NCBI GenBank assembly: GCA_019671135.1
Contig: JAHRHY010000030.1
Location: 112,094-176,093, forward strand
Direction of reading: 5' to 3'
Source: Linnemannia hyalina
Taxonomy: Eukaryota > Mortierellomycota > Mortierellomycetes > Mortierellales > Mortierellaceae
DNA length: 64,000 nucleotides
The position numbers and the translations under genes are program-made. Below, piece after piece: positions 23,894-60,800 of this stretch. Positions within the stretch are counted from its first letter, which is position 1; every line of letters begins with the position of its first letter. Under the pieces are notes generated by a model that saw only the letters and a program-made list of their open reading frames with translations, ran no database searches and was not told the origin of the DNA.

Positions 23894-23902
23894 TGCAACA
23901 TA

Positions 23903-24398
23903 GCGGCCCCTTCATGTGCAGAGGATATAAAAAAGCATATAAAAAATATCCAAAGCCCAAGGAACGGAGTGTTGACTTCCATAGCTGATATATCTCTTCA
24001 CAGTCGGCAACAGAACATAGGATAAAATAGCAACAGATAGCACAATTTTTTTTTAAAATGTAATCTCTCCCCTGTATTTCACGACAAAGATACAGTTGAG
24101 AGTGCAAGTGCTTTAGATGATCACATACAAGAACTACTCAGGCGAATCTTGCAGTGATGGGTACAGTTTAATAGTAGATGAACACATTCAAGATATTGGT
24201 GAGCGAAAAATAAGAAGACTTTGTTGTTTGGAGAATAGGTTGGTGTTTAGTAGGATAGTTAAACAAAAAATGTTACAATGGTTGTCTTATATGCTTGGTA
24301 TCATACATACACTCTCCTCTAATGGACGCGGTGGATATCGTCAAGATCTGCAGAGATGTAACAAACACCATATGATAATTTGGACTTGAAAGGCCTCC
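23903..24398 (+). repeat. Family H terminal direct repeat R1
   Basis: 496 bp. It starts GCGGCCCCTTCATGTGCAG, has two TATA-like words (GATATAAAAAAG, CATATAAAAAAT) within the first 50 bases and a 90-codon frame, and ends CTTGAAAGGCCTCC. Other copies are 28,689-29,184, 54,222-54,716, 59,568-60,062, solo 50,653-51,147 and solo 32,817-38,877 (minus, split). Confidence 0.9.
24117..24389 (+). CDS. Small 90-aa protein encoded in the H terminal repeat (R1)
   Basis: ATG at 24,117 (MITYKNYSGESCSDGYSLIV), 90 aa, ending NKHHMIIWT 9 bases before the repeat end. The frame is open in five of six repeat copies, including the diverged pair R3/R4 where about 15% of residues differ without any stop, which suggests selection or recent spread. 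Basic, cysteine-containing; no family recognised. An upstream TATA-like tract could drive it. It might be a short regulatory protein, or the frame may be open by chance. Confidence 0.45.
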   Translation: MITYKNYSGESCSDGYSLIVDEHIQDIGERKIRRLCCLENRLVFSRIVKQKMLQWLSYMLGIIHTLSSNGRGGYRQDLQRCNKHHMIIWT

Positions 24399-24521
24399 TA
24401 GGTGGAAGTGTCGAAGACATGTTACATTTTTAAAAAGTTCATGCTATATATACAACCACAAATGCCAACTGTTGACAATTGGATAGTTTTTAAAATATCT
24501 ACTCTTCATCTGTCTCAACAA

Positions 24522-26540
24522 CTACCAAAACTTTACATCTGGAGAGTACAATTTAGGCAATTCCTCGATCGTGAACCCCATGGCAATTAACTTCTGCTTT
24601 TGTTTGTTGTTGGTAAATTTGTCTCGACTATAGTTACTGTCACCGTTTGCAGGTATCTTATACAGCAGTCCAACAATAATGTCCTCTTCGTACCTCTTGA
24701 GCAGATGACATCCGTCGAAAAGGTAGTTGGTTGCATATTCATGCTTCTTGTCAAACGAACATGTTGTCCATTTAATTTCGTCTTTATCTATGACGATTAT
24801 ACCCGAGGAGCTTTTATCTTTAGGGTACCTTTTCCACATAACATCCTCAGCATCTTTATCATCCTCAGCATCTTTATCATCTTCAGCATCGTTATCACCC
24901 TCAGCATCTTTGTCATCCTCAGCATCGTTATCACCCTCAGCATCTTTGTCATCTTCAGCATCTTTATCACCCACCGCATCTTTGTCATCCTCAGCATCTT
25001 TATCGCCCTCAGCATCTTTATCATCCTCACATGTGCTCTCATCTTTCTGTGGCAAGCTTTGCTTATGCTCATGCGGTTTAAATCCCATAGCAAACAACTT
25101 CTCTTTTTCCTTCTGGCTAAGAGAATGACACTCTACATTCTCTGCAGCAATATGGTCATCAGTCATCAAGCCGATTACAGTGTCTTTTTTGCGCATCTTG
25201 AGAATGTGCATTCCATTTACAAGTACATTCTCGGAATATTCCAAGTACTTGTTAAGTTTTTTCCATATCACCTTGGATTTATCTGTTGGTCCTTCTACTG
25301 GTACTTCTTCTTCTACTTCGATCTCCTCGTTGAAAAGCGTCTTTCTCTCTTCATCAGACAATGGTCGAAGTTTCATCTTGCTAAGCATGGAGCGTTCCAA
25401 GATATCCAACTCTGGAACATCACCGACACCGCGCAGAGCATCAAGCGTAAACAGGCCAACGTATGTATTCTTTCCAGATAGCCTGACAATGTACTTGCCA
25501 TTCATCGTAAACTTAGTTGCATACTCAAGCATGTCGTTATTAGGATGAATCATCCATCCTCTGTCCTTCGCACGTGCTATGTCTTTCTCTGATCTAATGT
25601 TATGCACCGTTGTGGCCAGTGCAAATGTATGTTCATCTTTTCCATCCTTAGAAACGTCTACATTAGAAGATGGCTCTGCATTTTTGGGCATCTTTGAAGG
25701 CCTTTTCTTTCGAAGAGTCTTCTTCTTATCATCAGCAGAAGACTCTTCTATTTTTTCTACATCTGCAGGAGTTGCCTCTTGGAGTCCCATCTTTTGTAAT
25801 ATACGTGCCTCTTTTTCAGATATTTCCGGTACAGGAAGATTTTTGCCCATGAGCTCAGGTGGACACAATACAATGTAGAGATCCTTTTCCTTCAGCTTAA
25901 TAATGTACTTGCCATTTACAGTAAAGTTCTTTGCATACAGAAAAGCTGGATTAGTTGAATAACGCATCCATATGCCTGTATTAGCGAGTGGTACATTTTT
26001 CTTGGACGTTATGTCAACTACCTTTGGACTCAACGGAAAGGAGACGGCAATTTTATCTTCTTCATCATCATCGTCGGACGGCTCTTCATCCTCGGAAGTC
26101 ATATCGTCATCAGATGATACAAACTTAGAAGTATGTGTCTTCTTTAAAGCCTTGGAAGACTTGGGACGCGTAACGACAGGTGCATTCTTGTTACCACGTT
26201 TTATATGACCTCTATCTTGATCTTGATGACGCCCACAGTATGTTTGACCAATTTTGGCTACACTACCACAATTAGCGCCCTTAATGGTTGTGCCTTGACA
26301 CTTGCGCGCAGGATCGTGGACATAACAATGCATGCCTTCATCGTCAACTTCCTTCATGCATTTACGCTTGGACTTGACGCACTTTGCTCCACAAAAGTAG
26401 TATCTCTCCACTTCCTTATCCCCATCAAGCGCCTTAAAGATCTTATTTGCATCTTTCTTGGTAAACTCCACTCCCTTCTTAGAAGAAAATGTCTCGAAGG
26501 CCTTGGTGATGAGCTCGATTGTAAGCTGAACGTACTGCAT
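24522..26540 (-). CDS. Family H accessory protein: zinc-binding domains plus four repeats (672 aa)
   Basis: Begins MQYVQLTIELITKAFETF at 26,540. Two zinc-binding candidates: C50-x3-C-x6-C-x10-C-x2-H75 and C81-x9-C-x10-C-x2-H105 (core CQGTTIKGANC, YCGRH), a short motif also seen in many viral and mobile-element proteins. Acidic linker 143-162. Four degenerate repeats of about 65 residues follow (190-253, 328-391, 425-487, 590-656), each with a W or hydrophobic start, a pattern like EYATKFTMNGKYIVRL, and an end like KMGL or AMGF. Repeats 3 and 4 are separated by an acidic hexapeptide array (DKDAED, 504-566). Function unknown. It holds the position of the DNA-binding partner protein in Harbinger elements, but no Myb domain is seen. 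The paired transposase is at 27,261-28,517. Confidence 0.75.
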   Translation of the reverse strand: MQYVQLTIELITKAFETFSSKKGVEFTKKDANKIFKALDGDKEVERYYFCGAKCVKSKRKCMKEVDDEGMHCYVHDPARKCQGTTIKGANCGSVAKIGQTYCGRHQDQDRGHIKRGNKNAPVVTRPKSSKALKKTHTSKFVSSDDDMTSEDEEPSDDDDEEDKIAVSFPLSPKVVDITSKKNVPLANTGIWMRYSTNPAFLYAKNFTVNGKYIIKLKEKDLYIVLCPPELMGKNLPVPEISEKEARILQKMGLQEATPADVEKIEESSADDKKKTLRKKRPSKMPKNAEPSSNVDVSKDGKDEHTFALATTVHNIRSEKDIARAKDRGWMIHPNNDMLEYATKFTMNGKYIVRLSGKNTYVGLFTLDALRGVGDVPELDILERSMLSKMKLRPLSDEERKTLFNEEIEVEEEVPVEGPTDKSKVIWKKLNKYLEYSENVLVNGMHILKMRKKDTVIGLMTDDHIAAENVECHSLSQKEKEKLFAMGFKPHEHKQSLPQKDESTCEDDKDAEGDKDAEDDKDAVGDKDAEDDKDAEGDNDAEDDKDAEGDNDAEDDKDAEDDKDAEDVMWKRYPKDKSSSGIIVIDKDEIKWTTCSFDKKHEYATNYLFDGCHLLKRYEEDIIVGLLYKIPANGDSNYSRDKFTNNKQKQKLIAMGFTIEELPKLYSPDVKFW
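24838..25030 (-). repeat. 18-bp coding tandem repeat (DKDAED array)
   Basis: About ten units of GCTGAGGATGATAAAGAT or close variants inside the 672-aa gene, coding for an acidic hexapeptide repeat. Absent from the H2 copy, where a different C-terminus is found. Confidence 0.88.
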
Positions 26541-27260
26541 GTTTTTGGATATGAACGATATAGATTGTACTTGTGGTATGGTGGGTGTGAATGACTTTTC
26601 AGTTTATGTGTGGTAGATTGCAGCTGCTTAGTACACTGATATAAAGAATTGCAATAAAAGATGGTTGTATAGGTATGGATGGTTGTATAGATATGGATAA
26701 TGGTTGGTTGGTTACTAGATAAGATAAAGATTAAGCAAGAGGGAAGTGGAGTCCTTTATTTATACTAATTCATGGGACACTGCCACATTGGATATTAATA
26801 GCGCTTGCTTATTAACACTGCTTGGCGCTTAGTAACAAAAGAGTTTTAAAAAGGCATCTAAGTGGTTAATAACGTAGTGTTCCTCGTATGACGTAGATCT
26901 TGCTTATTAAGACTGCTTGGCGTTAAAGACGGTGTTTAAAAATGGTTAAGAATGTAGTATTCTTTTATGACGTAGGTTTGTACATGTGTTTATGTATTCT
27001 TTTATGACGTAGGTTTGTACATGTGTTTATCCTCTTTGTTAAATAAAAAGGAATGTTGTAGAATAGCATAGAATAGCATCCGATCTACTACAATAATACC
27101 ATGACTTTTAATAATAGATACCGGTGCATATTAGCGTCTAGGCAGTTAATACCGTATCTCAACGCTGACTAAATAGGCTATGTATGTCTATTCTTTTAAA
27201 AACCTGCAATAAGTCTACAAATTACCATTAACATCTATTTGTCGCTTCGTACTACGTACC
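26541..27260. other. Intergenic region of H1 between the 672-aa gene and DDE-2
   Basis: No gene. It contains an imperfect duplication of about 85 bp (two blocks sharing TTGCTTATTAA, CTGCTTGGCG and GTATGACGTAG-like words) and an exact 35-base tandem duplication around 26,957-27,030 (TTTTATGACGTAGGTTTGTA core), present once in H2. TGACGT words recur four times. Likely the 672-aa gene promoter plus the 3' end of DDE-2, which is marked by TTTTAAAAA near 27,196. Confidence 0.55.
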
Positions 27261-28517
27261 TCAAAGCGCAATGGAAAGGCCGGGTTGCAGTATTACTGGT
27301 GGATCCATTGGTGTGTCCTCATCAGAGTACTGGTCCTCATCAACATTATCATGAAGTTCAAGACCAAGAAATTCGTTCTGGAGTTGTGCCATTGTATTTC
27401 CATCCTCCACTAGTGCACCAACATCAACATATCCCATTGGTTGCTCAACATCGTTCTCTGTCGTCGGATACTCGAATCCTTCGCGGAGCCAAGCTGTATG
27501 AATTGGTTCTGCAGGAATCTTTAACAAAGCAACCATCTTTTTCATGTTTAAGAGTAACAAAGATAACTTCAACTGCAAATTATATGTTTGTTTCTTATCC
27601 ACCAATACAGGAGTACGATTGTTGTGTTTCTCAAATGTGGAACCAAGATCTGCAAACAGAGATTCCATCTGTGAGCGGAAACTACCAAAGGTGGTATTGT
27701 ATAACGCTTCTTCCTCTGTAAGTTCCTTGTTCTTCTTTTTACGGTATGGATGAGCGAAATTTTGGAATTTAAGAGTATCAGACTCATCTACAAGCCTCCT
27801 TAAGAACTGTGGATACCCTCCATCGAGAGCTATGCAATCCATCTCATGCACTCTCTTGTCCAACTTCATCGTCAGCAGCATTGTTCCATCAGCATTGTTC
27901 TTGCAAGATGCAGATTTGGAGACAAATAAAGCCATGCCATTACAATCCATTGCTACCTGTGTGCGTAATCCTGACTTTTTCAGCTTGTAAGAATACATAT
28001 CAGCACTGCTCTCACCTTTGTATGTTGCTCTTGTATCATGACCATCAAGATGCAATGTGACATGCTTAAATAATACAGGATTCTTTTCCTTTGCAGACAA
28101 TAGGCGTATTTTAATTGTGGAGAACATTGTTGCAATACAGTTGGTGATGTACTTATTGTGCAAAGTATATTCTTTCTTATAAAACACAGAGTGCATTGCA
28201 TGAAAACTACTTTTTGGCATGTGTGGTTCCATTGCTTCCATAGACAGTCCTTTGACAAGATGATAGAGCATTAAAAGACCTTTCTCCACTTCTTTGTATG
28301 GCCCAGGATACTTGACTTTTGGCCAGATATCAACAAGAAAGAAGTACACTGGAATAGGTCCAAGGCGTCGATTCAGAGTCTCTTTTATTTGTGGCATAAA
28401 CCCAATTTCCTTGCTTACAGTACGATGGTTATTACGTGGTGTAACTGTTGGCCATCCAGCGTCAAGGAAAGTCCAATGGTCATCAAGCAGTTGTTTGAAA
28501 TGTTTTGTTAGAGCCAT
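27261..28517 (-). CDS. DDE-2 transposase of H1 (DDE_Tnp_4/Harbinger-like)
   Basis: 418 aa from the ATG at 28,517 (MALTKHFKQLL), chosen because the split copy at 9,315 starts at the same residue; the frame is open further upstream. Catalytic candidates: D158 in LDGHDTRATY, D232 in ALDGGYPQF and E285 in FRSQMESLFADL. The block YKLKKSGLRTQVAMDCNG followed by NNADGTML matches the order of conserved blocks in HARBI1-type transposases (DGthi ... K..y.v.v..d..G ... D ... GY ... R..vE..fg.lK). About half identical to DDE-1 of family L. Intact frame. It should cut and join DNA at the H ends with 3-bp duplications. Confidence 0.82.
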   Translation of the reverse strand: MALTKHFKQLLDDHWTFLDAGWPTVTPRNNHRTVSKEIGFMPQIKETLNRRLGPIPVYFFLVDIWPKVKYPGPYKEVEKGLLMLYHLVKGLSMEAMEPHMPKSSFHAMHSVFYKKEYTLHNKYITNCIATMFSTIKIRLLSAKEKNPVLFKHVTLHLDGHDTRATYKGESSADMYSYKLKKSGLRTQVAMDCNGMALFVSKSASCKNNADGTMLLTMKLDKRVHEMDCIALDGGYPQFLRRLVDESDTLKFQNFAHPYRKKKNKELTEEEALYNTTFGSFRSQMESLFADLGSTFEKHNNRTPVLVDKKQTYNLQLKLSLLLLNMKKMVALLKIPAEPIHTAWLREGFEYPTTENDVEQPMGYVDVGALVEDGNTMAQLQNEFLGLELHDNVDEDQYSDEDTPMDPPVILQPGLSIAL

Positions 28518-28688
28518 AATAATATTTATGTATTGGATTGTCATGACGTTGACCAACAATAACAATTTTTTAAAAATGCTCATACTTTACTGCATACACA
28601 AGAGCATGTAGGATGGTATCTATCAACTGTATCTCACAGCAAGCACATAGTTGAGAATACAAATATACGTTTATATTTTTTTTCGGTA

Positions 28689-29184
28689 GCGGCCCCTTCA
28701 TGTGCAGAGGATATAAAAAAGCATATAAAAAATATCCAAAGCCCAAGGAACGGAGTGTTGACTTCCATAGCTGATATATCTCTTCACAGTCGGCAACAGA
28801 ACATAGGATAAAATAGCAACAGATAGCACAATTTTTTTTTAAAATGTAATCTCTCCCCTGTATTTCACGACAAAGATACAGTTGAGAGTGCAAGTGCTTT
28901 AGATGATCACATACAAGAACTACTCAGGCGAATCTTACAGTGATGGGTACAGTTTAATAGTAGATGAACACATTCAAGATATTGGTGAGCGAAAAATAAG
29001 AAGACTTTGTTGTTTGGAGAATAGGTTGGTGTTTAGTAGGATAGTTAAACAAAAAATGTTACAATGGTTGTCTTATATGCTTGGTATCATACATACACTC
29101 TCCTCTAATGGACGCGGTGGATATCGTCAAGATCTGCAGAGATGTAACAAACACCATATGATAATTTGGACTTGAAAGGCCTCC
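28689..29184 (+). repeat. Family H terminal direct repeat R2
   Basis: 496 bp, same orientation as R1 and nearly identical (one substitution noted in the small frame, TTGCAG/TTACAG). Preceded by TTCGGTA and followed by the duplicated ATA. Confidence 0.9.
28903..29175 (+). CDS. Small 90-aa protein of the H terminal repeat (R2)
   Basis: Same product as 24,117-24,389 with one residue changed (C12 to Y). Open frame. Confidence 0.45.
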   Translation: MITYKNYSGESYSDGYSLIVDEHIQDIGERKIRRLCCLENRLVFSRIVKQKMLQWLSYMLGIIHTLSSNGRGGYRQDLQRCNKHHMIIWT

Positions 29185-29385
29185 ATATTAGGTTTATCAT
29201 TGCTCTCTAGTTAGTCATTCCTTGTCACTCTCTATCATCTCTGACTCACTATGACACTACACCTAGAAACCTAGTTGGCGACTTTGTATATATATTTAGT
29301 TGTACCATAGTAATAACAGGAATCATCACTGCTTCAACTCTCGTCCCCGTTCTATACTTCTCTGTCCCAGTCTTCGCCTGTTGCA
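29185..29385 (+). repeat. Ty3-B copy 2 5' LTR, remainder after H1
   Basis: Starts with the duplicated ATA; 29,188-29,385 plus 23,894-23,902 restores 207 bp. Differs from copy 1 at two places noted (TTGGCGAC, AACAGGAATC). The primer site TGGTAGCAAAGG follows. Confidence 0.9.
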
Positions 29386-32816: not shown

Positions 32817-33257
32817 GGAGGCCTTTCAGGTCCAAGTTATCATATGGTGTTTGTTACATCTCTGTAGATCTCGACAATATCCATAGCGACTATGGGATGA
32901 GAATGTATATATGATACCAAGCATATAAGACAACCATTGTAACATTTTTTGTTTAACTATCCTACTAAACACCAACCTATTCTCCAAACAACAAAGTCTT
33001 CTTATTTTTCGCACACCACACTCTTGAATGTGTCCATCTACTATTAACCTGTAACCCTCACTGCAAGATTCGCCAGAGTAGTTCTTGTATGTGATCATCT
33101 AAAGCACTTGTACTCTCAACTGTATCTTTGGGGCGAAATACAGGGGAGAGATTACATTTTAAAAATTCTTGTACTGTCTACTGCTATTTTATTCTGTGTT
33201 CTGTTGCCCACTATGAAGAGATATGCCAGTTATGGAAGTCAACACTCCGTTCCTTGG
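32817..33257 (-). repeat. Solo H repeat Rs2, first part (minus orientation)
   Basis: Right-end part of a family-H repeat (GGAGGCCTTTCAGG at its edge), including the 90-codon frame at 32,826-33,098 on the minus strand. Split by Ty3-B copy 3; the remaining 54 bases are at 38,824-38,877 (495 bp together). The two outer flanks are TAT (32,814-32,816) and TAA (38,878-38,880), which do not match. Confidence 0.88.
32826..33098 (-). CDS. Small 90-aa protein of H repeat Rs2
   Basis: Variant closest to the R3/R4 type (SEGYRLIVDGHIQE, YTFSSHSRYGYCRD) with an open frame. Function unknown. Confidence 0.4.
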   Translation of the reverse strand: MITYKNYSGESCSEGYRLIVDGHIQECGVRKIRRLCCLENRLVFSRIVKQKMLQWLSYMLGIIYTFSSHSRYGYCRDLQRCNKHHMITWT

Positions 33258-38818: not shown

Positions 38819-38823
38819 CTTGG

Positions 38824-38877
38824 GCTTTGGATATTTTTTATATGCCTTTTTATATCCTCTGCACATGAAGGGGCCGC
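38824..38877 (-). repeat. Solo H repeat Rs2, second part
   Basis: The TATA-bearing end of the repeat (edge GAAGGGGCCGC) after the copy 3 duplication CTTGG. Followed by TAAGCTATGCCCACC of an L terminal repeat. Confidence 0.88.
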
Positions 38878-43273: not shown

Positions 43274-43593
43274 GGGAAATGTCTTGGGTCGAAATAGTTA
43301 AATATGTTATGGAATACCAATGGAAGTTGCAAGAATTTGTACAGACGATTATGGAAGGAGTTTTTAAAAAGACAACAGATATATCTATAAAGAATACATA
43401 TACAAAAGCAAAAGAATCCAAATGGACATAGTTATCTAGCAGTATTACAAGAGCAAAACGTAAGGAAAGAGTATCAACATAAACATATTTTACATATCGG
43501 TAATCGAGGAATAGAATTGGGGGAGTGCGCTTTTTTTTGGGCGAGGGAGTACACCTGTTTTCTCGTCTTTTGTTAAGCTATGCCCACCATTTT
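43274..43593. repeat. Family L copy e: left terminal inverted repeat
   Basis: About 320 bp, tip GGGAAATGTC, inner edge AAGCTATGCCCACCATTTT. It contains a frame MSWVEIVKYVMEYQWKLQEF ending KAKESKWT (50 codons) that is partly conserved in other ends but loses its ATG in the GGGAATCGTC variant, so its coding value is doubtful. Confidence 0.82.
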
Positions 43594-43768
43594 AAATCAC
43601 CTACGTTCATATAACATATATAGCATTTATACATGTGTCAACGGTGAATCTCATGCATATACATCATGATGATAATGGTACCAGCTTGGTTGACAGTACA
43701 TGAATTCCCTGGGAATAATTCCCATAATACTACTTATGGAAGGTATATATATTGCACATTTTAAAAGA

Positions 43769-44161
43769 TTATTCCGATAGCTCAACAACATTGGCTGTAT
43801 CTAATTCTTCCTCTTGATTTACCATGATACCACTGGCAAATCCTTTGATCAAGGCATTTATTATATAAATCTCCTTCTTCTGCTGGGAAATAATTTGGTT
43901 CATCTTATCCATTCCTTTCTCCAATTTTCTGACACGTTTCTTCAACTTCTTATTCTCATACCGTAAATCATCATCGGATTGTTGTACATCCTCGTCTTTC
44001 TTAGATCTCCCAGATTTCACATGATTTCCACCATTCTTTTTTGCCTGATAGCTCTCCTTGGAAGACTTTATCTTGCATTCCTTACATGTATTTCTGGAAT
44101 CATCGTAGAAATCATATAAAGGCTTCTTTTTGTCACACCTGTTGCAAATCCTTTTTGGCAT
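43769..44161 (-). CDS. Family L copy e: zinc-ribbon/coiled-coil protein (130 aa)
   Basis: ATG at 44,161, MPKRICNRCDKKKPLYDFYD. Four cysteines C6-x2-C9 and C26-x2-C29 make a zinc ribbon. A charged linker follows, then a coiled coil at about residues 66-105 (YENKKLKKRVRKLEKGM, MNQIISQQKKEIY). Small zinc-ribbon plus coiled-coil proteins of this build are common in large DNA viruses and in mobile elements; I cannot name a family. Divergent from the 90-aa gene across a 196-base intergenic region, with TTTTAAAA just past its stop. Confidence 0.8.
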   Translation of the reverse strand: MPKRICNRCDKKKPLYDFYDDSRNTCKECKIKSSKESYQAKKNGGNHVKSGRSKKDEDVQQSDDDLRYENKKLKKRVRKLEKGMDKMNQIISQQKKEIYIINALIKGFASGIMVNQEEELDTANVVELSE

Positions 44162-44357
44162 ATTAGGCGGAATGGTGATCTCTTGATAGTTGATATACCA
44201 CGTTTTTTCCCGGGAATATTTCTCTCAATGTTTGTGTTTGAGGGCATACACAACAATATCTAATATAGATGTCAAGTTGTATCTATTCAAGGGAGTAATT
44301 GACAAATAGGTATATAGGGGGATGAGCATTTAGACGTTTTATCGCCGCAAATATATT
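44162..44357. promoter_or_regulatory. Bidirectional promoter region of family L
   Basis: Sits between the divergent 130-aa and 90-aa genes and is highly conserved at 52,704-52,899, 62,482-62,668 and 20,102-20,288. It contains a CCCGGGAATATTTCTC palindromic area and TATA-like ATAGGTATATAG. Promoter role inferred from position and conservation. Confidence 0.5.
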
Positions 44358-44630
44358 ATGCCCAGGCCTACACGTTTAACCAAAGCACGCCAGCAGGAAG
44401 TTGTTGCAGATTTTATTTATGAGAAGAATCTGGAATTGTGTATGTTTGTCTATTTGGATGAATTTTTAGATCATCATCGTAACCTCTTTCCACAAGATGC
44501 CACTATATTTGGCACTAACGGCATAAAAAAGTTATTAGAGGCATCTTATCAACTCCTACGTGACAAAATACGTGCAGATGGATTACTTACCGAGAAAGAC
44601 GCTGGTGAATATATGCTTAGAAAAAAATGA
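44358..44630 (+). CDS. Family L copy e: 90-aa helical protein
   Basis: MPRPTRLTKARQQEVVADFI, 90 aa, ending AGEYMLRKK. Predicted mostly helical with a hydrophobic, leucine-rich middle (LELCMFVYLDEFLDHH) and basic ends. It precedes the Rep-like gene by 45 bases on the same strand, so the two may share a transcript. Five copies in the window, three of them open. No family recognised. Confidence 0.72.
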   Translation: MPRPTRLTKARQQEVVADFIYEKNLELCMFVYLDEFLDHHRNLFPQDATIFGTNGIKKLLEASYQLLRDKIRADGLLTEKDAGEYMLRKK

Positions 44631-44675
44631 CGACCTAAATTATAGACTTTTTAAAACCTAAGTATACCTTTTATT

Positions 44676-46379
44676 ATGTCGCCAACAAAAGAATCTCTGA
44701 TAAACAAAGCCATCAACGAAATTTCCCATTTGCTGTCAAATGTGGGTAATCTACAGTCAGCACCATTTGGCAGTGTGGAGAGAAAAGGATTCACCAAATT
44801 CTCCAAACTCTTTTGCGATTCCATCATCTTTTGGGGTATATATAACTTTGCTGACGATACCACTAAAGGTACAGCAATTGGAAAGTACATTGCTGAACTG
44901 CGCGATGCATTTAACCACACCGATTTAATTGTGGAATCTGTAAAGTTGGTCGATGCTAGGCAGGTTAAAATGGATGATAACTATTTTTCTCCGCGCATGG
45001 TCAAACGCCATAGAAAGTTGTTTGTTGGAAAAGAATACCAACAGGGTTTTATTGCCATCAAGGTTTCTTTAGATTTTTCCCGTGCAAAGATTGTTGTGCC
45101 AATTTTGGCGAACATGTTGTCTAGCTTGAACGAGAGCGGCATTGCTTTACATGACATAGACTTTGCCTATGATTGTACGCGTATTACCACACGACTGCAC
45201 GTGGAGAGATTGCTAAAACAAACGAAAACTACAAAAATTGTCGATGATGTGGGAAGAGTAGGACATCATTGTATTTCATGGAGAGGTCGAAAAGGGGATA
45301 CAAAGAATATCCGATATAAGGTGTATAACAAATTTGTTCAGATTTTGGAAAGTGCCGAGGTGCGAAAGAGCCTTGGTTCACGTTTGGAGGATTTGGTGGA
45401 GAAAGAAACAGCATTTGGACGACGAGTTAAAAAATATAAAAAGCATGGTTATAGTCGTATCGAGCTGACGTTTGAAGGTTCATCTTTGAGATCTCTTCAG
45501 TCATATCAAGACGAAATGGACAAGACAAAGAATCTCTTGAAGAAATGTAAAACATTTAAATGTTCCTTTGAGATGCAGTGGGAGGAACGTGCAAAATGCA
45601 TTACCTCGATGGTGGCTGTACATTTTCCACATGAGAAACTGTTTGCTTATTGTCACTGGTGGAATTCGGTAACCTCTAAGAAGTATGGATATATGTGGCA
45701 AAACTTTAAGAACCCCGAGCTTATTACACTTTTGCTGGCTAACTATTCCTTTAACGATAGACCTATATACTTTGTGGAAGGACATGTAAAAGAGGTAAAT
45801 GGGAAAGAGAAAGTTATTTTGGGCGAAATAAGGACATTTAAGCGCGAGCCTGGATGTACTGCCATCACACTAGTTGCTGGCTCGCAAAAAGGAATGTTTC
45901 CTTCGAGGGATGCATCTTCTAACGTCATTCGTAAATTTAGCAAAGTTGGAATTGTGGAAGTTGACAACATCTCTATTGCCTGGCCAAAGCGTGTTCATAA
46001 CAGATATAGTGCCCCACTTGCAGATATCTTCGAATATGATGAAGATACAGTAGATACAAATGTATTACATCTGAAAACTATTCATGTTTCGATGTATACT
46101 GCAGCCGACCGAATTCTAAAGCCTGATGAAGAGTATACCATTGTGGCGGCCGGTCTCAAAGAATTTCGTTCTGAACATCGTTGGCATTTTATTACAGCAT
46201 GTGGCATAAAGGTGCGCGCAGGAAAATCGTTGGCAAAGATTTGGACACCATGGCGTGTGGAGCATCTTCAAGGTCTACAGAGAATTGGCAGAGTCGAAGG
46301 TGTACCGTTGATGACATTTCGTGCAGTAAAAAAGGTTCGTATTCATGGCGAGGACGATATGAAGTGCGAGCGTGTTTGA
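44676..46379 (+). CDS. Family L copy e: Rep-like protein (candidate rolling-circle initiator, 567 aa)
   Basis: Begins MSPTKESLINKAINEISHLL. The central part carries, in order, HDIDFAYDC (159-167), HHCISW (197-202), IRYKVYNKFVQ (212-222) and GYSRIELTFEG (258-268). The spacing and order D-x-D, R-x-YNK, R-x-E-L resemble the Rep_trans/pT181-type plasmid replication initiators, where these residues build the nicking domain. That is a judgement by eye and is not proven. The C-terminal half (AITLVAGSQKGMFPSR, HWWNSV, PLADIFEYDEDTVDTN) is unfamiliar. Seven other copies occur in the window, all next to a convergent DDE-1 gene or fragmentary. Alternatives: an unrelated endonuclease or a novel family. 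Confidence 0.7.
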   Translation: MSPTKESLINKAINEISHLLSNVGNLQSAPFGSVERKGFTKFSKLFCDSIIFWGIYNFADDTTKGTAIGKYIAELRDAFNHTDLIVESVKLVDARQVKMDDNYFSPRMVKRHRKLFVGKEYQQGFIAIKVSLDFSRAKIVVPILANMLSSLNESGIALHDIDFAYDCTRITTRLHVERLLKQTKTTKIVDDVGRVGHHCISWRGRKGDTKNIRYKVYNKFVQILESAEVRKSLGSRLEDLVEKETAFGRRVKKYKKHGYSRIELTFEGSSLRSLQSYQDEMDKTKNLLKKCKTFKCSFEMQWEERAKCITSMVAVHFPHEKLFAYCHWWNSVTSKKYGYMWQNFKNPELITLLLANYSFNDRPIYFVEGHVKEVNGKEKVILGEIRTFKREPGCTAITLVAGSQKGMFPSRDASSNVIRKFSKVGIVEVDNISIAWPKRVHNRYSAPLADIFEYDEDTVDTNVLHLKTIHVSMYTAADRILKPDEEYTIVAAGLKEFRSEHRWHFITACGIKVRAGKSLAKIWTPWRVEHLQGLQRIGRVEGVPLMTFRAVKKVRIHGEDDMKCERV

Positions 46380-46414
46380 GAGGTTTTTAAAAACTTTGGA
46401 AAGACTTTTGTTAA
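46380..46414. terminator. Shared 3' end of the convergent Rep-like and DDE-1 genes
   Basis: 35 bases between the two stops, centred on the palindrome GGTTTTTAAAAAC. Conserved at 17,967-18,001, 21,985-22,019, 40,263-40,297, 49,740-49,774 and 60,766-60,800. A bidirectional 3'-end signal is inferred. Confidence 0.5.
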
Positions 46415-47695: not shown

Positions 47696-47779
47696 AATGT
47701 CGTTTTCTGCAAAAATAGGGATTATACACACGTAATTATGTCAATTATTCCCTAGAATTCCCCAGATATGTCATATTAA

Positions 47780-48054
47780 GAAATGGTGGGCATAGCTTAA
47801 CAAAAGACGAGAAAACAGGTGTACTCCCTCGCCCAAAAAAAAGCGCACTCCCCCAATTCTATTCCTCGATTACCGATATGTAAAATATGTTTATGTTGAT
47901 ACTCTTTCCTTACGTTTTGCTCTTGTAATACTGCTAGATAACTATGTCCATTTGGATTCTTTTGCTTTTGTATATGTATTCTTTATAGATATATCTGTTG
48001 TCTTTTTAAAAACTCCTTCCATAATCGTCTGTACAAATTCTTGCAACTTCCAAT
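47780..48054. repeat. Family L copy e: right terminal inverted repeat (tip missing)
   Basis: Inverted copy of 43,274-43,593, from AAATGGTGGGCATAGCTTAA to TTGCAACTTCCA. Copy f's tip begins at 48,055 and the last roughly 50 bases of this end are not found at the other side of f. Confidence 0.8.
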
Positions 48055-48374
48055 GGGAATCGTCTTGGGTCGAAATAGATGAATATGTTATGGAATACCA
48101 ATGGAGGTTGCAAGAATTTGTACAGACAATTATGGAAGGAGTTTTTAAAAAGATAACAAATACATCTATAAAGAGTACATATACAAAAGCAAAAGAATCC
48201 AAATGGACATAGTTATCTAGCAGTATTACAAGAGCAAAACGTAAGGAGAGAGTATCAACATAAACATATTTTACATATCGGTAATCGGGCAGGACAAAAA
48301 GGTTGGAGCGCTTTTTTTTGGGCGAGGGAGTACACCTATTTTCTCGTCTTTTGTTAAGCTATGCCCACCATTTC
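48055..48374. repeat. Family L copy f: left terminal inverted repeat
   Basis: Forms a large head-to-head palindrome with the right end of copy e (47,780-48,054), about 300 bases per arm with almost no spacer. Confidence 0.85.
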
Positions 48375-50652: not shown

Positions 50653-51147
50653 GCGGCCCCTTCATGTGCAGAGGATATAAAAAGGCATATAAAAAATATC
50701 CAAAGTCCAAGGAACGGAGTGTTGACTTCCATAACTGGCATATCTCTTCATAGTGGGCAACAGAACACAGAATAAAATAGCAATAGACAGTACAAGAATT
50801 TTTAAAATGTAATCTCTCCCCTGTATTTCACGACAAAGATACAGTTGAGAATACAAGTGCTTTAGATGATCACATACAAGAACTACTCTGTCGAATCTTG
50901 CAGTGAGGGTTACAGGTTAATAGTAGATGGACATATTCAAGAGTTTGGTGTGCGAAAAATAAGAAGACTTTGTTGTTTGGAGAATGTAGTTGTGTTTAGT
51001 AGGATAATCGCGCAAGGAATGTTACAGTGGTTGTTTTAAATGGTTGATATCATACATACACTCTCCTCTAATGGACGCGGTGGATATCGTCAAGATCTGC
51101 AGAGATGTAACAAACACCATATGATAATTTGGACTTGAAAGGCCTCC
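50653..51147 (+). repeat. Solo family H repeat Rs1 with 3-bp target duplication
   Basis: 495 bp, GCGGCCCCTTC to AAGGCCTCC, bounded by ATG at 50,650-50,652 and 51,148-51,150. Removing it and one ATG restores the Rep-like frame. Its small internal frame carries a stop (after MLQWLF), unlike the other copies. Confidence 0.92.
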
Positions 51148-51815: not shown

Positions 51816-52134
51816 GGGAATCGTCTTGGGTCGAAATAGATGAATATGTTATGGAATACCAATGGAGGTTGCAAGAATTTGTACAGACAATTATGGAAGG
51901 AGTTTTTAAAAAGATAACAAATACATCTATAAAGAGTACATATACAAAAGCAAAAGAATCCAAATGGACATAGTTATCTAGCAGTATTACAAGAGCAAAA
52001 CGTAAGGAGAGAGTATCAACATAAACATATTTTACATATCGGTAATCGGGCAGGACAAAAAGGTTGGAGCGCTTTTTTTTGGGCGAGGGAGTACACCTGT
52101 TTTCTCGTCTTTTGTTAAGCTATGCCCACCATTT
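51816..52134. repeat. Family L copy g: left terminal inverted repeat
   Basis: Tip GGGAATCGTCTTGGG, inner edge GCTATGCCCACCATTTT. Inverted partner 62,164-62,481. Confidence 0.83.
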
Positions 52135-52310
52135 TAAAACACCTACGTTCATATAACATATATAGCATTTATACGTGTGTCCCCGGTGAATCTCATGCAT
52201 ATACATCATGATGATAATGGTACCAGCTTGGTTGACAGTACATGAATTCCCTGGGAATAATTCCCATAATACTACTTATGGAAGGTATATATATTGCACA
52301 TTTTAAAAGT

Positions 52311-53172: not shown

Positions 53173-53217
53173 CGACCTAAATTATAGACTTTTTAAAACC
53201 TAAGTATACCTTTTATT

Positions 53218-54221
53218 ATGTCGCCAACAAAAGAATCTCTGATAAACAAAGCCATCAACGAAATTTCCCATTTGCTGTCAAATGTGGGTAATCTACAGTC
53301 AGCACCATTTGGCAGTGTGGAGAGAAAAGGATTCACCAAATTCTCCAAACTCTTTTGCGATTCCATCATCTTTTGGGGTATATATAACTTTGCTGACGAT
53401 ACCACTAAAGGTACAGCAATTGGAAAGTACATTGCTGAACTGCGCGATGCATTTAACCACACCGATTTAAATGTGGAATCTGTAAAGTTGGTCGATGCTA
53501 GGCAGGTTAAAATGGATGATAACTATTTTTCTCCGCGCATGGTCAAACGCCATAGAAAGTTGTTTGTTGGAAAAGAATACCAACAGGGATTTATTGCCAT
53601 CAAGGTTTCTTTAGATTTTTCCCGCGCAAAGATTGTTGTGCCAATTTTGACGAACATGTTGTCTAGCTTGAACGAGAGCGGCATTGCTTTACATGACATA
53701 GACTTTGCCTATGATTGTACACGTATTACCACACGACTGCACGTGGAGAGATTGCTAAAACAAACGAAAACTACAAAAATTGTCGATGATGTGGGAAGAG
53801 TAGGACATCATTGTATTTCATGGAGAGGTCGAAAAGGGGATACAAAGAATATCCGATATAAGGTGTATAACAAATTTGTCCAGATTTTGGAAAGTGCCGA
53901 GGTGCGAAAGAGCCTTGGTTCACGTTTGGAGGATTTGGTGGAGAAAGAAACAGCATTTGGACGACGAGTTAAAAAATATAAAAAGCATGGTTATAGTCGT
54001 ATCGAGCTGACGTTTGAAGGTTCATCTTTGAGATCTCTTCAGTCATATCAAGACGAAATGGACAAGACAAAGAATCTCTTGAAGAAATGTAAAACATTTA
54101 AATGTTCCTTTGAGATGCAGTGGGAGGAACGTGCAAAATGCATTACCTCGATGGTGGCTGTACATTTTCCACATGAGAAACTGTTTGCTTATTGTCACTG
54201 GTGGAATTCGGTAACCTCTAA
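53218..54221 (+). pseudogene. Family L copy g: Rep-like protein, N-terminal part (split by H2)
   Basis: Residues 1 to about 334 (HWWNSVTS). H2 is inserted at TAA (54,219-54,221). The rest is at 60,066-60,765; together exactly 568 codons without any other break, so H2 is the only visible damage. The core motifs HDIDFAYDC, YNKFVQ and RIELTFEG are all in this part. Confidence 0.88.
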
Positions 54222-54716
54222 GCGGCCCCTTCATGTGCAGAGGATATAAAAAGGCATATAAAAAATATCCAAAGCCCAAGGAACGGAGTGTTTACTTCCA
54301 TAACTGACATATCTCTTCATAGTGGGCAACAGAACACAGAATAAAATAGCAATAGACAGCACATGTTTTTTTAAAATGTAATCTCTCCCCTGTATTTCGC
54401 CCCAAAGATACAGTTGAGAGTACAAGTGCTTTAGATGATGACATACAAGAACTACTCTGGCGAATCTTGCAGTGAGGGTTACAGGTTAATAGTAGATGGA
54501 CATATTCAAGAGTGTGGTGTGCGAAAAATAAGAAGACTTTGTTGTTTGGAGAATAGGTTGGTGTTTAGTAGGATAGTTAAACAAAAAATGTTACAATGGT
54601 TGTCTTATATGCTTGGTATCATATATACATTCTCATCCCATAGTCGCTATGGATATTGTCGAGATCTACAGAGATGTAACAAACACCATATGATAACTTG
54701 GACGTGAAAGGCCTCC
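54222..54716 (+). repeat. Family H terminal direct repeat R3
   Basis: 495 bp with the 90-codon frame at 54,435-54,707 (MMTYKNYSGESCSEGYRLIV). Same orientation as R4. Confidence 0.92.
54435..54707 (+). CDS. Small 90-aa protein of the H terminal repeat (R3)
   Basis: Open frame. Differs from the R1 product at about 15 residues (EGYRLIVDGHIQECGV; YTFSSHSRYGYCRD). Function unknown. Confidence 0.42.
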   Translation: MMTYKNYSGESCSEGYRLIVDGHIQECGVRKIRRLCCLENRLVFSRIVKQKMLQWLSYMLGIIYTFSSHSRYGYCRDLQRCNKHHMITWT

Positions 54717-55189
54717 TAGGTGAATGTTTTAAAAAAATATGGGTAATGCAATAATGGTGAGGGTGCATGCATTGTGGAACGTCTCAGATGAAGTTATCGT
54801 GGTTTTTATAATGTTTGATGTAACATACTTTGTAGGAAGTTACGATTGTTATAATATTTGTTGATATGCGGCCTCCTATACAGATCGTTGGTAAATATGC
54901 CAATGGTGAAAAAATAAATGTCATAAAGAGTGCATGCATTGTAGAACATATTAGATATAGTTATTGTAATTTTCGTAATGTTAAATATAAGTAGATTGTG
55001 GATAAACACCACTGTGATCAAGAAAGAAATATTGTAAATTGTGCAAAGGATGGTGGAAGTTTTTAAAAAGATGGGTAATATATCTGGTGAATCTCATTGG
55101 AAGGGACGAGGATAATATTACATGTGTATTCCATATATAAAAGCTTTATTTGTGCAAGTGGTATATCTACAGTTTTTAAAATTCTTGAT
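54717..55189. other. H2-specific AT-rich segment downstream of the accessory gene
   Basis: About 470 bases, in place of only 123 bases in H1. No gene seen. Two related blocks contain TGCATGCATTGT(G/A)GAAC and a TTTTTAAAAAGATGGGTAAT word, suggesting an internal duplication. TTTTTAAAATTC stands just after the accessory gene stop. Confidence 0.45.
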
Positions 55190-57485
55190 CTACTCTTCTG
55201 CGGTCTCAAATGTTACTTCAAGAGGCTTCTTTTCTTCCATCGTACTTTTCTCTTTGGCTTGAATACTATCTAATACACTTTGCACTATGGTTTTTCTGTT
55301 GTTAGATCCTTCTTTTGCAAACTTACATAATATATCGGAATGTGGTTCGCGGGAACCAAACTTATCCATGTGCCATGTTTCGTAGTTGGAATAATCTTTC
55401 TCCAACAAACCTAGGTGAAAAATTAGTTCTTTTTCTTCTGCATTACCATCTGCCGAAACGTATTCCTCGCGGAGTTCTTCTTCGATAGCTGTTATTTTGC
55501 TATATACTTCTCCCATTGCCTTCAGAAAATCATGATGGTCTTTTGTAGTGTAAACACTTGAGGCATTCACATTTTCGCTTTCCATAGGTCCACCATCTTC
55601 TAGAGTTTTCTTAACATCCGACTCTTGCACCTCATCATCTACTTTTTCTACAAGTTCATCTAAAGTTTCCTTAATATTCGACTCTTGCACCTCATCATCT
55701 ATTTTTTCTACCGGTTCACCTTTCTCTGTCGACCTATCCTTAGACCATTGTGGCTTAAAGCCCATAGCGAAGATCTTTTCTTTTTCCTTTTGGTTAAGAT
55801 TATCATAGTCGACATTCTCTGCACTAATGTGGTCATCAGTCACCAAGCCAACTACAATGTTTTGCTTGCGGATCTTGAGAATGTGCTTTCCATTTACAAG
55901 TACATTCTTGGAATACTCCAATTGCTGCTTGTGAAACCTTTTCCATTTCATCTTGGATATATCTGTCGGTCCTTCCACTGGTAGTTCCTCTTCTACTTCG
56001 ACCTCCTCGTTGAAAAGCATCTTTCTCTCTTCATCAGACATTTCTTGAAGTTTCATCTTGCTAAGCATGGAGCGTTCCAAGATATCCATCTCTGGAACAT
56101 CACCACCGCCACGCAGATGATCAAGCGTAAACAGGCCAACGTATGTATTCTTTCCACATAGCTTGACAATGTACTTAGCCTTCATCGTAAAGTTAGTTGC
56201 ATACTCAAGCATGTCGTTATTAGGATGAACCATCCATCCTCCATCCTTTGCAAGTGGTATGTCTTTCTCTGATCTAATGTTACGCACCGTTGTGGCCAGT
56301 GCAAATGTGTGTTCATCTTTTTCATCCTTAGAAACATCTACATTAGAAGATGGCTCTGCATTTTTGGGCATCTCTGAATGCCTTTTCTTTCGAGAAGTCT
56401 TCTTCTCATCATCCTTAGATGGCTTTTTATGAGATAGTTTTTCATCAGGGTTATCCTTAGAGGTATCATCTCCAGATTCTACATCAGGTCTGTTATTGGA
56501 CTTGCCATCATCAGAGTCTTTATCTTTAGAGGAATCATCCGTCAGAGTCAGCATTATCAGACGTATCACCATCATCTGTATCATCGTCAGAATTCTCATC
56601 AGCAGAAGACTCTTCTATTTTTTCTACATCTGCTGAAGTTGCCTCTTGAAGACCCATCTTGGCCAATATGCGTGCCTCTTTCTCAGATATTTCTGGCGCA
56701 GGGAGATTCTTGCCCATGAGCTTAGGTGGACACAATGCAATGTAGAGATTCTTTTCCTTTAGCCTAATAATGTACTTGCCATTTACAAGTAAAGCTTTTT
56801 GCATACAGGAAAGCTGGATTAGTTGCATAACGCGTCCCATATACATGTATTAGCGAGTGGTACATTTTTCTTGGACGTTATGTCCAACTACCTTTAGACT
56901 CAACGGAAAGGAGCACGGCAATTATATTCTTCTCATACATCATGCATCGGGACGGTCTCTTCATCCGGAGTGAACTCCTGCTTGTTTCTCCTGTTCGCTT
57001 CCTTTGGTTCTTCATCCCGCGGAAGTCATATCACGTGTACATCGGAAGACCACAAATACTTAGAAGTATGTGTATCTTTCTTTAAAGCCTTGGAAGGACT
57101 TGGTGACGGCTGTCGAACAGGGGGCGTTGTTGTGTACTAAGTATCTTAGATAACCTCTATCTTGATCTTGATGACGTCCACAGTATGTTTGACCAAGTTT
57201 GGCTACACTACCACAATTAGCACCCTTAATAGTTGTGCCTTGACACTTGCGCGCAGGATCGTGGACATAACAATGCATGCCTTCATCATCAACTTCCTTC
57301 ATGCATTTGCGCTTGGACTTGGTGCACTTTTCTCCACAAAAGTAGTATCTCTCTACTTCCTCATCCTCATCAAGCGCCTTAAAGATCTTATTTGCATCTT
57401 TCTTGTTAAACTCCACTCCCTTCTTAGAGGAGAATGTCTCAAAGGCCTTGGTGATGAGCTCGATTGTAAGCTGAACGTACTTCAT
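55190..57485 (-). pseudogene. Family H2 accessory zinc-binding repeat protein, frameshifted, with a different C-terminus
   Basis: Start MKYVQLTIELITKAFETF at 57,485. Both zinc-binding motifs are conserved (CGEKCTKSKRKC; CQGTTIKGANC, YCGRHQ). Between 57,060 and 56,850 many small indels break the frame relative to H1. The repeats then continue in two overlapping frames (56,846-56,535 and 56,599-55,190). Repeats 2 and 3 are preserved. The acidic hexapeptide array and repeat 4 of H1 are replaced by an unrelated charged tail with helical coiled-coil character (FLKAMGEVYSKITAIEEELR). Confidence 0.75.
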
Positions 57486-58187
57486 GTTTTTGGATATGAA
57501 TAATATGGATTGTACTTGTGGTATGGTGGGTGTGAATGAGTTTTCAGTTTATGTGTGGTAGATTGCAGCTGCTTAGTACACTGATATAAAGAATTGCAAT
57601 AAAAGATGGTTGTATAGGTATGGATGGTTGTATAGATATGGATAATTGTTGGTTGGTTACTAGATAAAGATTAAGCAAGAGGGAAGTGGACTCCTTTATT
57701 TATACTAATTCAGGAACACTGCCACAATGGACATTAATAGCGCTTGCTTATTAGCACTGCTTGGCGCTTAGTAACAAAAGAGTTTTAAAAAGGCATCTAA
57801 GTGGTTAATAATGTAGTGTTCCTCGTATGACGTAGATCTTGCTTATTAAGACTGCTTGGCATTAAAGACGGGGTTTAAAAATGGTTAAGAATGTAGTATT
57901 ATTTTATGACGTAGGTTTGTACATGTGTTTATCCTCTTTGTTAAATAAAAAGGAATGCTGTAGAATAGCATAGAATAGCATCCGATCTACTACAATAATA
58001 CCATGGCTTTTAATAATAGATACCGGTGCATATTAGCGTCTTGGCAGTTAATACCGTATCTTAAAGCTGACTAAATAGGCCATGTATGTCTATTCTTTTA
58101 AAAACCTGCAATAAGTCTACAGATTACCATTAACATCCATTTGTCGCTTCGTACCTCCAAGCTCAATGGAAAGACCGGGTTGCATTA
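57486..58187. other. Intergenic region of H2
   Basis: Counterpart of 26,541-27,260 with the same TGACGTAG words and the same imperfect duplication, but one copy of the 35-base tandem unit in place of two. No gene. Confidence 0.55.
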
Positions 58188-59406
58188 TTACTGCTTGATC
58201 CATTGGTGTGTCCTCATCAACATTAACATCAACATCACCATGAGATTAATACCAAGAAATTTGTTCTGGAGTTGTGCCATTGTATTTCCATCCTCCACTA
58301 GCGCACCAACATCAACATATCCCATTGGTTGCTCAACGTCGTTCTCTGTCGTCGGATACTCGAATCCTTCGCGAAGCCAAGCTGTATGAATTGGTTCTGC
58401 AGAAATCTTCAACAAAGCAACCATCTTTTTCATGTTTAAGAGTAACAAAGATAACTTCAACTGCAAATTATATGTTTGTTTCTTATCCACCAACACAGGA
58501 GTACGGTTGTTGTGTTTCTCAAATGTGGAACCAAGGTCTGCAAACAGAGATTCCATCTGCGAGCGGAAACTACCAAAGGTGGTATTGTATAACGCTTCTT
58601 CCTGTGTAAGTTCCTTGTTCTTCTGTTTACGGTATGGATGAGCGAAATTTTGGACTTTAAGAGTATCAGACTCATCTATAAGCCTCCTTAAGAACTGTGG
58701 ATACCCTCCATCGAGAGCAATGCAATCCATCTCATGCACTCTCTTGTCCAACTTCATCGTTAGCAGCATTGTTCCATCAGCATTGTTCTTGCAAGATGCA
58801 GATTTGGAGACAAATAAGGCCATGCCATTACAATCCATTGCTACCTGTGTGCGTAACCCTGACTTTTTCAGCTTGTAAGAGTACATATCAGCACTGCTCT
58901 CACCTTTGTATGTTGCTCTTGTATCATGACCATCAAGATGCAATGTAACATGCTTAAATAATGGAGGATTCTTTTCCTTTGCAGACAATAGGCGTATTTT
59001 AATTGTGGAGAACATTGTTGCAATACAGTTGGTGATGTACTTGTTGTGCAAAGTATATTCTTTCTTATAAAAACACAGAGTGCATTGCATGAAAACTACT
59101 TTTTGGCATGTGTGGTTCCATTGCTTCCATAGACAGTCCTTTGACAAGATGATAGAGCATTAAAAGACCTTTCTCCACTTCTTTGTATGGACCAGGATAC
59201 TTAACCTTTGGCCAGATGTCAACAAGAAAGAAGTACACTGGAATAGGACCAAGGCGTCGATTTAGGGTTTCTTTTATTTCTGGCATATACCCAATTTCCT
59301 TGCTTACAGTACGATGATTATTACGTGGTGTAATTGTTGGCCATCCAGCGTTGAGGAAAGTCCAATGGTCATCAAGCAGTTGTTGGAAGTGTTTTGTTAG
59401 ATCCAT
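58188..59406 (-). pseudogene. Family H2 DDE-2 transposase, frameshifted
   Basis: ATG at 59,406 (MDLTKHFQQLLDDHWTFLNA). One extra A in an A run near 59,072 shifts the frame after about 110 residues. The remainder with LDGHDTRATY, ALDGGYPQF and FRSQMESLFADL is open in the other frame. The C-terminus also differs from H1 after LQNKFLG. Otherwise very similar to 27,261-28,517. Confidence 0.85.
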
Positions 59407-59567
59407 AATAATATTTATGTATTGGATTGTCATGACGTTAACCAACAATAACAATTTTTTAAAAAGGCTTATACTTAACTGCATACACAACAGCATGTAG
59501 GATGGTATCTATCATATAGCAAGCACATAGTTGAGAATACAAATATATTTTTATATTTTTTTCGGTA

Positions 59568-60062
59568 GCGGCCCCTTCATGTGCAGAGGATATAAAAAGG
59601 CATATAAAAAATATCCAAAGCCCAAGGAACGGAGTGTTTACTTCCATAACTGACATATCTCTTCATAGTGGGCAACAGAACACAGAATAAAATAGCAATA
59701 GACAGCACATGTTTTTTTAAAATGTAATCTCTCCCCTGTATTTCGCCCCAAAGATACAGTTGAGAGTACAAGTGCTTTAGATGATGACATACAAGAACTA
59801 CTCTGGCGAATCTTGCAGTGAGGGTTACAGGTTAATAGTAGATGGACATATTCAAGAGTGTGGTGTGCGAAAAATAAGAAGACTTTGTTGTTTGGAGAAT
59901 AGGTTGGTGTTTAGTAGGATAGTTAAACAAAAAATGTTACAATGGTTGTCTTATATGCTTGGTATCATATATACATTCTCATCCCATAGTCGCTATGGAT
60001 ATTGTCGAGATCTACAGAGATGTAACAAACACCATATGATAACTTGGACGTGAAAGGCCTCC
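59568..60062 (+). repeat. Family H terminal direct repeat R4
   Basis: 495 bp, no difference from R3 seen in the small frame (59,781-60,053). Followed by the duplicated TAA. Confidence 0.92.
59781..60053 (+). CDS. Small 90-aa protein of the H terminal repeat (R4)
   Basis: Identical product to 54,435-54,707. Confidence 0.42.
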   Translation: MMTYKNYSGESCSEGYRLIVDGHIQECGVRKIRRLCCLENRLVFSRIVKQKMLQWLSYMLGIIYTFSSHSRYGYCRDLQRCNKHHMITWT

Positions 60063-60765
60063 TAAGAAGTATGGATATATGTGGCAAAACTTTAAGAACC
60101 CCGAGCTTATTACACTTTTGCTGGCTAACTATTCCTTTAACGATAGACCTATATATTTTGTGGAAGGACATGTAGAAGAGGTAAATGGGAAAGATGAAGT
60201 TATTTTGGGCGAAATAAGGACATTTAAGCGCGAGCCTGGATGTACTGCCATCACGCTAGTTGCTGGCTCGCAAAAAGGAATGTTTCCTTCGAGGGATGCA
60301 TCTTCTAACGTCATTCGTAAATTTAGCAAAGTTGGAATTGTGGAAGTTGACAACATCTCTATTGCCTGGCCAAAGCGTGTTCATAACAGGTATAGTGCCC
60401 CACTTGCAGATATCTTCGAATATGATGAAGATACAGTAGATACAAATGTATTACATCTGAAAACTATTCATGTTTCGATGTATACTGCAGCCGACCGAAT
60501 TCTAAAGCCTGATGAGGAGTATACCATTGTAGCGGCCGGTCTCAAAGAATTTCGTTCTGAACATCGTTGGCATTTTATTACAGCATGTGGCATAAAGGTG
60601 CGCGCAGGAAAATCGTTGGCAAAGATTTGGACACCATGGCGTGTGGAGCATCTTCAAGGTCTACAGAGAATTGGTAGTGTGAAAGGTGTGCCGTTCATGA
60701 CATTTCGAGCGATTAGAGTGGTTAATTCACATAATATACTTGATATGAAGTGCGAGCGCGTTTGA
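60063..60765 (+). pseudogene. Family L copy g: Rep-like protein, C-terminal part
   Basis: Resumes with the duplicated TAA, then KKYGYMWQNFKNPEL to MKCERV. The ending RAIRVVNSHNILDMK differs from copy e (RAVKKVRIHGEDDMK), as in copies d and f, so two 3'-end variants of this gene circulate. Confidence 0.88.
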
Positions 60766-60800
60766 GAGGTTTTTAAAAACTTTGGAAAGACTTTTGTTAA

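Follow-up and report, generated by a model that had tools for sequence, protein, structure and literature searches.

How does an element with a DDE transposase come to carry two long direct repeats that match each other within the element and differ from those of its relatives, in the manner of the long terminal repeats (LTRs) of retrotransposons? The question is raised by H1, an insertion in a 64,000-nucleotide stretch of the Linnemannia hyalina genome (contig JAHRHY010000030.1, positions 112,094 to 176,093; hereafter the window), and by the other members of its family, H. Our analysis reveals that copies of the terminal repeat, R, recombine with one another, and we lean towards such recombination as the source of the matching pairs. 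H1 has the layout R–cargo–R inside a single 3-bp duplication:

23900..23902, no strand: left target duplication ATA of H1; the empty site in four LTR copies has a single ATA
23903..24398, plus strand: R1, left terminal direct repeat of H1, 496 bp, defined by repeat comparison
24399..28688, plus strand: cargo (INT) of H1, TAGGTG at its start and TCGGTA at its end; the same inner junctions (TAG and GTA) occur in 32 of 33 pairs from the genome
28689..29184, plus strand: R2, the right-hand copy of the H1 terminal direct repeat, a single mismatch from R1, defined by repeat comparison
29185..29187, no strand: right target duplication ATA of H1, defined by flanks and empty sites
27261..28586, minus strand: DDE_Tnp_4 transposase, 441 amino acids stop to stop; Pfam E 6.9e-08, above the Pfam cut-off
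24522..26603, minus strand: second protein, 693 amino acids between stops, with the first ATG near 26537; its N-terminal part is rich in Cys and His, and no Pfam family exceeds the cut-off

R1 and R2 are 496 bp each, and their single mismatch lies at repeat position 249. R begins with GCGGCCCCTTC and ends with GGCCTCC, and 10 of the 15 bases at one end match the other end as an inverted repeat, a level reached by 0.2% of random internal 15-mer pairs. The H1 target is found uninterrupted, with a single ATA, in four Ty3-type LTRs elsewhere in the window. The initial annotation had described near-identical 496-bp direct repeats within one ATA duplication, with which coordinates, length and flanks all agree. 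It had also proposed a Harbinger-like transposase and no reverse transcriptase; consistent with this, the transposase scores above the Pfam cut-off for DDE_Tnp_4, and Pfam finds no reverse transcriptase in the two open reading frames (ORFs) of H1 or in three ORFs of H2, a second copy in the window.

To place H1 among its relatives, we searched 51,506,068 bases of the L. hyalina genome in 50 contigs (numbered C1, C2 and so on); the published SCG-10 assembly comprises 51,558,230 bases in 52 contigs, with an N50 of 2,317,658, and was built from PacBio Sequel reads with HGAP4. At least 95 transposase places are listed (of 312 candidates), and 94 of these 95 lack internal stops. A search for the initial 25 bases of R, with at most three mismatches, matched 434 places, versus none for the control. 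Of the 100 left ends of R that are listed, five lie on C10 and were left out; for the 95 on C1 to C9, a listed transposase could be assigned to 43 and not to the remaining 52. Solo or otherwise incomplete R is therefore common in the genome. We completed 33 repeat pairs, or 31 once the inner pairs of two tandem arrays were set aside. Some left ends were picked from a list ranked by similarity to H1, which makes the sample non-random, and four left ends (L054, L062, L063 and L064) were dropped for want of a usable R.

The outer 3-bp flanks are equal in 28 of 30 units, compared with a shuffled mean of 3.6 and a maximum of 12 in 20,000 shuffles, which rules out chance equality; in this count the flanks of the inverted unit were entered by hand, and the C35 unit is a duplicate of the C10 locus. 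TAT (7) and ATA (4) are the commonest duplications among the 28 units. Together, flanks and empty sites show that insertion takes place as a whole unit or as R, with the transposase working at the outer ends of R–cargo–R and generating a 3-bp duplication.

The 89 complete R copies represent 45 haplotypes. The two R of an element are identical in 22 of 31 pairs (shuffled mean 1.6, maximum 8, 20,000 shuffles), and the mean within-pair difference is 2.5 columns versus 23.5 after shuffling; these shuffles retain the C35 unit and the composite C48 and C6 units. In the 33-pair set, the 23 identical pairs represent 17 haplotypes, ten of which are confined in the sample to both ends of one element. 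When shuffling is restricted to elements whose cargo is nearly identical, the identical pairs number 15 of 20, versus a shuffled mean of 4.1 (P below 1/50,000). In addition, both R share a change absent from all other sampled R, 89 in total, in 5 of 31 pairs (6 of 33 with the composite C48 unit), and the haplotype of a C33 pair has no exact matches except its own two ends among 40 scored places of 492 candidates. In large groups, a single R type also occupies both ends (h1, 12 copies; h2, 9 copies), and the right R of element C27b is nearer to three other places in the genome than to its own partner.

The initial annotation had taken concordance within elements and difference between them as an LTR signature. 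Concordance holds genome-wide, and in the window, as had been noted, the H2 repeats match each other and differ from those of H1 (100% and 91.8% identity, respectively). LTR-style copying does not follow from it, as recombination among R fits the same data. Nor do pairs always agree, as a small number are discordant. C10 and its duplicate locus C35 show 19 differences between their R, all at positions 337–414, with equal outer flanks; the R of C33:78673 differ at 9 sites and its outer flanks are unequal; C8:37326 differs at 3 sites, the C6 tandem at 8 columns and the composite C48 unit at 16 sites. In C48 the right R is h1-like in its first part and has the states of the left R in its last, and the unit fits a nested insertion followed by R-by-R deletion. 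Cases of the kind that the annotation had held to speak against its reading, namely discordant pairs and short elements inserted independently, thus occur in part: 6 of 8 solo candidates are solo R with their own 3-bp duplication. R can therefore occupy a site alone. Two solo R even lie within the cargo of other H copies, each with its own duplication (C47:1658015, TTA; C48:2437389, CTA).

Other arrangements were also found. Tandem (R–cargo)n–R arrays on C8 and C12 have one outer duplication each, and one element (C33:86185-91825) has identical R in inverted orientation, with flanks TAT and TAT. On C44, R recurs every ~8.35 kb on one strand (2824946, 2833300, 2841643 and 2850000), probably as a large tandem array near the contig end. 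At C35:15171 and C35:21509, two R of different block types share the same right flank (55 of 55 bases) and lie beside inverted partial R. Cargo joined directly to cargo (INT–INT) was found at 0 places with two exact patterns, the first of which gave one control match per strand; excision of R leaving such junctions, as in the animal transposon KolobokP, was accordingly set aside for those two forms.

R types are partly uncoupled from the cargo they flank. A small number of block types, combined as mosaics, make up the R haplotypes. Among 117 element pairs whose cargo is at most 0.5% apart over ~2 kb, R is at least 3% apart in 49 and at most 0.5% apart in 54, whereas the mean R distance within an element is 0.31%; this comparison leaves out three interrupted cargo rows and the C35 duplicate. 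H1 and C50:55475, for example, differ at 4 cargo sites in the ~2 kb next to the right R versus 30 R columns, and C27b and C50:55475 at 6 cargo sites in the same interval versus 48 R columns. A full alignment of C27b with H1 shows 19 and 20 differences in the two R, spanning one common stretch (134 to about 396). At C10, the block 337–414 is changed in the left R only and the outer flanks are equal; C11, whose cargo is 3 changes from C10 over 2 kb, carries that block variant in both R. C10 and C11 are what would be expected before and after a block conversion. Since such mosaics, the C10 and C11 states, and tandem and solo forms are all present, R copies recombine with one another.

On balance, we favour R-by-R recombination, comprising gene conversion and crossover, as the process that resets R pairs, with H as a composite-like DNA transposon. 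Each R has both ends with a short imperfect inverted repeat and is probably mobile alone, as the duplications around solo R suggest. Crossovers between the R of one element or of neighbours would yield solo R and tandem (R–cargo)n–R, products that are present in the genome. Mosaics show that R copies swap blocks, and an element's two R may then be returned to a single sequence by gene conversion or crossover between them. The LTR-like concordance would accordingly be an outcome of ordinary homologous recombination among several hundred R and not of reverse transcription. We prefer this reading because block mosaics require recombination anyway and because it allows an element with inverted R: the inverted-R element on C33 is concordant, which conversion permits and a direct-repeat circle does not.

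Several observations weigh against this preference. The only same-locus duplicate found (C10/C35) has not changed since duplication, hence conversion over time is unobserved. The reset must also be quick, for clear discordance is limited to about five units, with 22 of the 31 pairs identical. C47:2567282 has identical R yet unequal outer flanks (ATT and AAG), which is unexplained without a further change. Furthermore, a correlation persists between R and cargo distances (Spearman 0.50), which makes the uncoupling incomplete. When shared and unshared R changes were set against cargo singletons in a clock test, conversion was not separated from copying at insertion, and twin-making at insertion or afterwards both fit the data.

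The alternative that survives best, although we consider it unlikely, is an intermediate with a single R. Recombination of R with R would produce a circle of one R and one cargo, which would be copied at insertion. In the chemistry that we propose for it, the transposase would nick opposite strands at the ends of the single R, the 496-nt single-stranded ends would join the target, and gap filling would make R double-stranded at both ends, giving twin R from one duplex. Such an intermediate would account for tandem arrays and solo R as well as for identical pairs whose haplotype is seen in one element only (10 of the 17 haplotypes among the 23 identical pairs), including the C33 pair for which the scored places hold no third exact copy. 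It does not yield an inverted-R element such as that on C33, and by itself it does not account for R types uncoupled from cargo. We give a low probability to a DDE transposon that, each time it inserts, renews its two long direct repeats from a single template; if true, H would have the lifestyle of an LTR element without reverse transcription.

Somewhat less probable still is cargo capture, in which the broken R of a cargo circle undergoes ends-in recombination with a chromosomal solo R that serves as the repair template. Both R would then take the resident sequence, and the 3-bp duplication would be that of the older solo R. The KolobokP authors draw a related route, in which a circle enters a solo repeat (PMC9587614). 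R types uncoupled from cargo are consistent with capture, and C27b offers a candidate: its cargo is of H1 type (12 changes in 4,494 bp versus C1b), and the places nearest to its R, other than its own two, include C44:44236, C26:112348, C8:635743, C9:1193500 and C12:3772595, which have no listed transposase near them. However, two cargo changes 19–20 bp from the right R of C27b match another cargo type, and the exchange therefore did not end exactly at the R edge. Solo R could equally be remnants of full elements, and reciprocal hybrid R would be expected unless the whole R were replaced, whereas most pairs are identical.

A lack of any reset, with a few master elements moving whole and R pairs inherited by subfamily, is very improbable: the one R type at both ends throughout h1 and h2 and the correlation of R with cargo distances agree with it, but block changes occur at the same positions in both R, some pairs share a change seen in no other R, and the identity that persists under shuffling inside near-identical cargo groups speaks against whole-unit inheritance without a reset. 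An assembly artefact, in which polishing copied one R onto the other, is about as remote, for misplaced PacBio Sequel reads in an HGAP4 assembly could in principle give single-base twin changes, but pairs have in common blocks of 19–48 differences from other elements, polishing would drift towards the genome-wide majority and not towards a partner 5 kb off, and discordant pairs survived.

We compared H with known systems, starting from its proteins. Residues D181, D184, D255 and E308 of the transposase are invariant across 18 aligned homologues, and the predicted secondary structure holds the catalytic residues (strand 178–185, strand 252–254 and helix 291–317). A fold search with the transposase returned nothing at E 0.001 or better, with Tn5 transposase second at E 0.2, and a sequence search of solved structures gave only two matches, weak and unrelated. 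The model of the second protein has a mean predicted local distance difference test score (pLDDT) of 56.7, and its fold search gave no usable match. Homologues of the transposase number 225 proteins, the named ones among the 120 listed being mostly from Mortierellaceae and some from Apophysomyces, and 12 relatives of the second protein were found. One scan for viral relatives, which may omit records near the window's own genome, gave 21 pattern stretches and 0 confirmed. The gene for the H1 second protein contains coding repeats of 9 and 18 bp (window positions 24839-25045). On a contig matching C48 in length, the annotated gene model P0122 fuses a transposase of a related family, G, with an H second protein, probably via nested insertion.

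The closest published plan is that of KolobokP, a group of the Kolobok superfamily from seven animal phyla with long terminal direct repeats of about 450 or 660 bp, presented as unlike any other DNA transposon in this respect (Kojima and Bao 2022, PMC9587614). According to the main-text portion of that paper, on which our comparison draws, KolobokP shares with H a transposase-bearing INT between long terminal direct repeats (495–496 bp in H), each with short inverted repeats of its own. Solo repeats, (repeat–INT)n–repeat tandems and outer duplications are likewise common to both; in H, outer duplications were observed for 6 of 8 solo candidates and for both fully read tandem arrays. The 3-bp duplication of H overlaps the 3–4 or 4–5 bp of KolobokP. 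By comparison, the H transposase is DDE_Tnp_4 and its host is a fungus, INT–INT junctions are present in KolobokP and were not found for H with the two exact patterns, and the His-Me finger nuclease of KolobokP was not detected by Pfam in the two H1 or three H2 ORFs. No Kolobok-type C/DxxH was seen by eye between the second D and E (D255–E308) in the H alignment, no Kolobok profile having been run, and H ends in GC...CC where Kolobok termini are RR...YY. Twin identity and the uncoupling of repeat from cargo are not treated in that portion of the KolobokP paper.

As described in the part of the PIF/Harbinger literature consulted (PMC2836001), H resembles those elements in having DDE_Tnp_4 with a complete triad, a second element-encoded protein and 3-bp duplications, and its solo R recall their short related elements, similar to miniature inverted-repeat transposable elements. 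H differs from them in its long direct terminal repeats, and the Myb-like domain of the Harbinger second protein was not found by Pfam in that of H. PIF/Harbinger elements prefer TWA as target, a preference that H does not show (TAA or TTA in 6 of 28 units). H is not a Kolobok; it is Harbinger-like, save for the target preference and for a Myb-like domain that Pfam did not detect.

Like LTR retrotransposons, H has twin direct repeats, solo repeats and one short outer duplication. Unlike them, its repeats end in GC...CC and not TG...CA, have inverted ends of their own and in one copy are inverted; moreover, integrase and gag, like reverse transcriptase, were undetected in the H ORFs scanned. 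Each end repeat is a possible mobile unit, as in bacterial composite transposons, from which H differs in that its transposase gene is central and not in the end repeats. A one-repeat circle could also enter beside a resident repeat, similar to the targeted integration of IS26-type elements as outlined in the KolobokP paper (PMC9587614).

Among the open-licence papers listed in our searches, no other DNA transposon of this plan appeared. H follows the KolobokP plan in a fungal host and with a Harbinger-like transposase, which suggests that the plan arose more than once and therefore either brings an advantage or is easy to reach. Resetting of end repeats is normally taken as proof of reverse transcription; H illustrates that twin direct repeats and one short duplication alone do not identify an LTR retrotransposon. 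The family is young and abundant, as its open transposases indicate, so the reset is directly testable in isolates.

The remaining H-related features of the window are as follows:

54219..54221, no strand: left target duplication TAA of H2, defined by flanks and empty sites
54222..54716, plus strand: left terminal repeat of H2, 495 bp, defined by repeat comparison
54717..59567, plus strand: H2 cargo; its transposase frame is interrupted, leaving overlapping minus-strand pieces at 58188-59159 and 59065-59508
59568..60062, plus strand: right terminal repeat of H2, 495 bp, identical to the left, defined by repeat comparison
60063..60065, no strand: right target duplication TAA of H2, defined by flanks and empty sites
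50653..51147, plus strand: solo R with flanks ATG and ATG
32817..33257, minus strand: larger portion of a solo R interrupted by a Ty3-type element; outer flanks TTA and ATA, unequal
38819..38877, minus strand: smaller part of the same split R, belonging with 32817..33257

The H2 target is uninterrupted, with a single TAA, at 45660, 63964 and 50478 (minus strand), in copies of the element that hosts H2 in the same window. H2 is nested inside G2, a member of family G, a related DDE_Tnp_4 element with 281–319-bp inverted arms (window 43274-48061 and 51816-62486). As a control, the arms of G1 and of G2 are each 99% alike, whereas G1 and G2 arms are 92% alike and their cargo 96–98% alike (two elements, window only). 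No Rfam match was found in the window. Elsewhere in the genome, 279-bp pieces of the G arm recur every ~413 bp at C12:1870310-1872240 and at places on C11, C19 and C20, in a satellite-like arrangement. Outside the H copies, a gene related to the H transposase gene, with 76% identity, lies at window positions 2041-2862.

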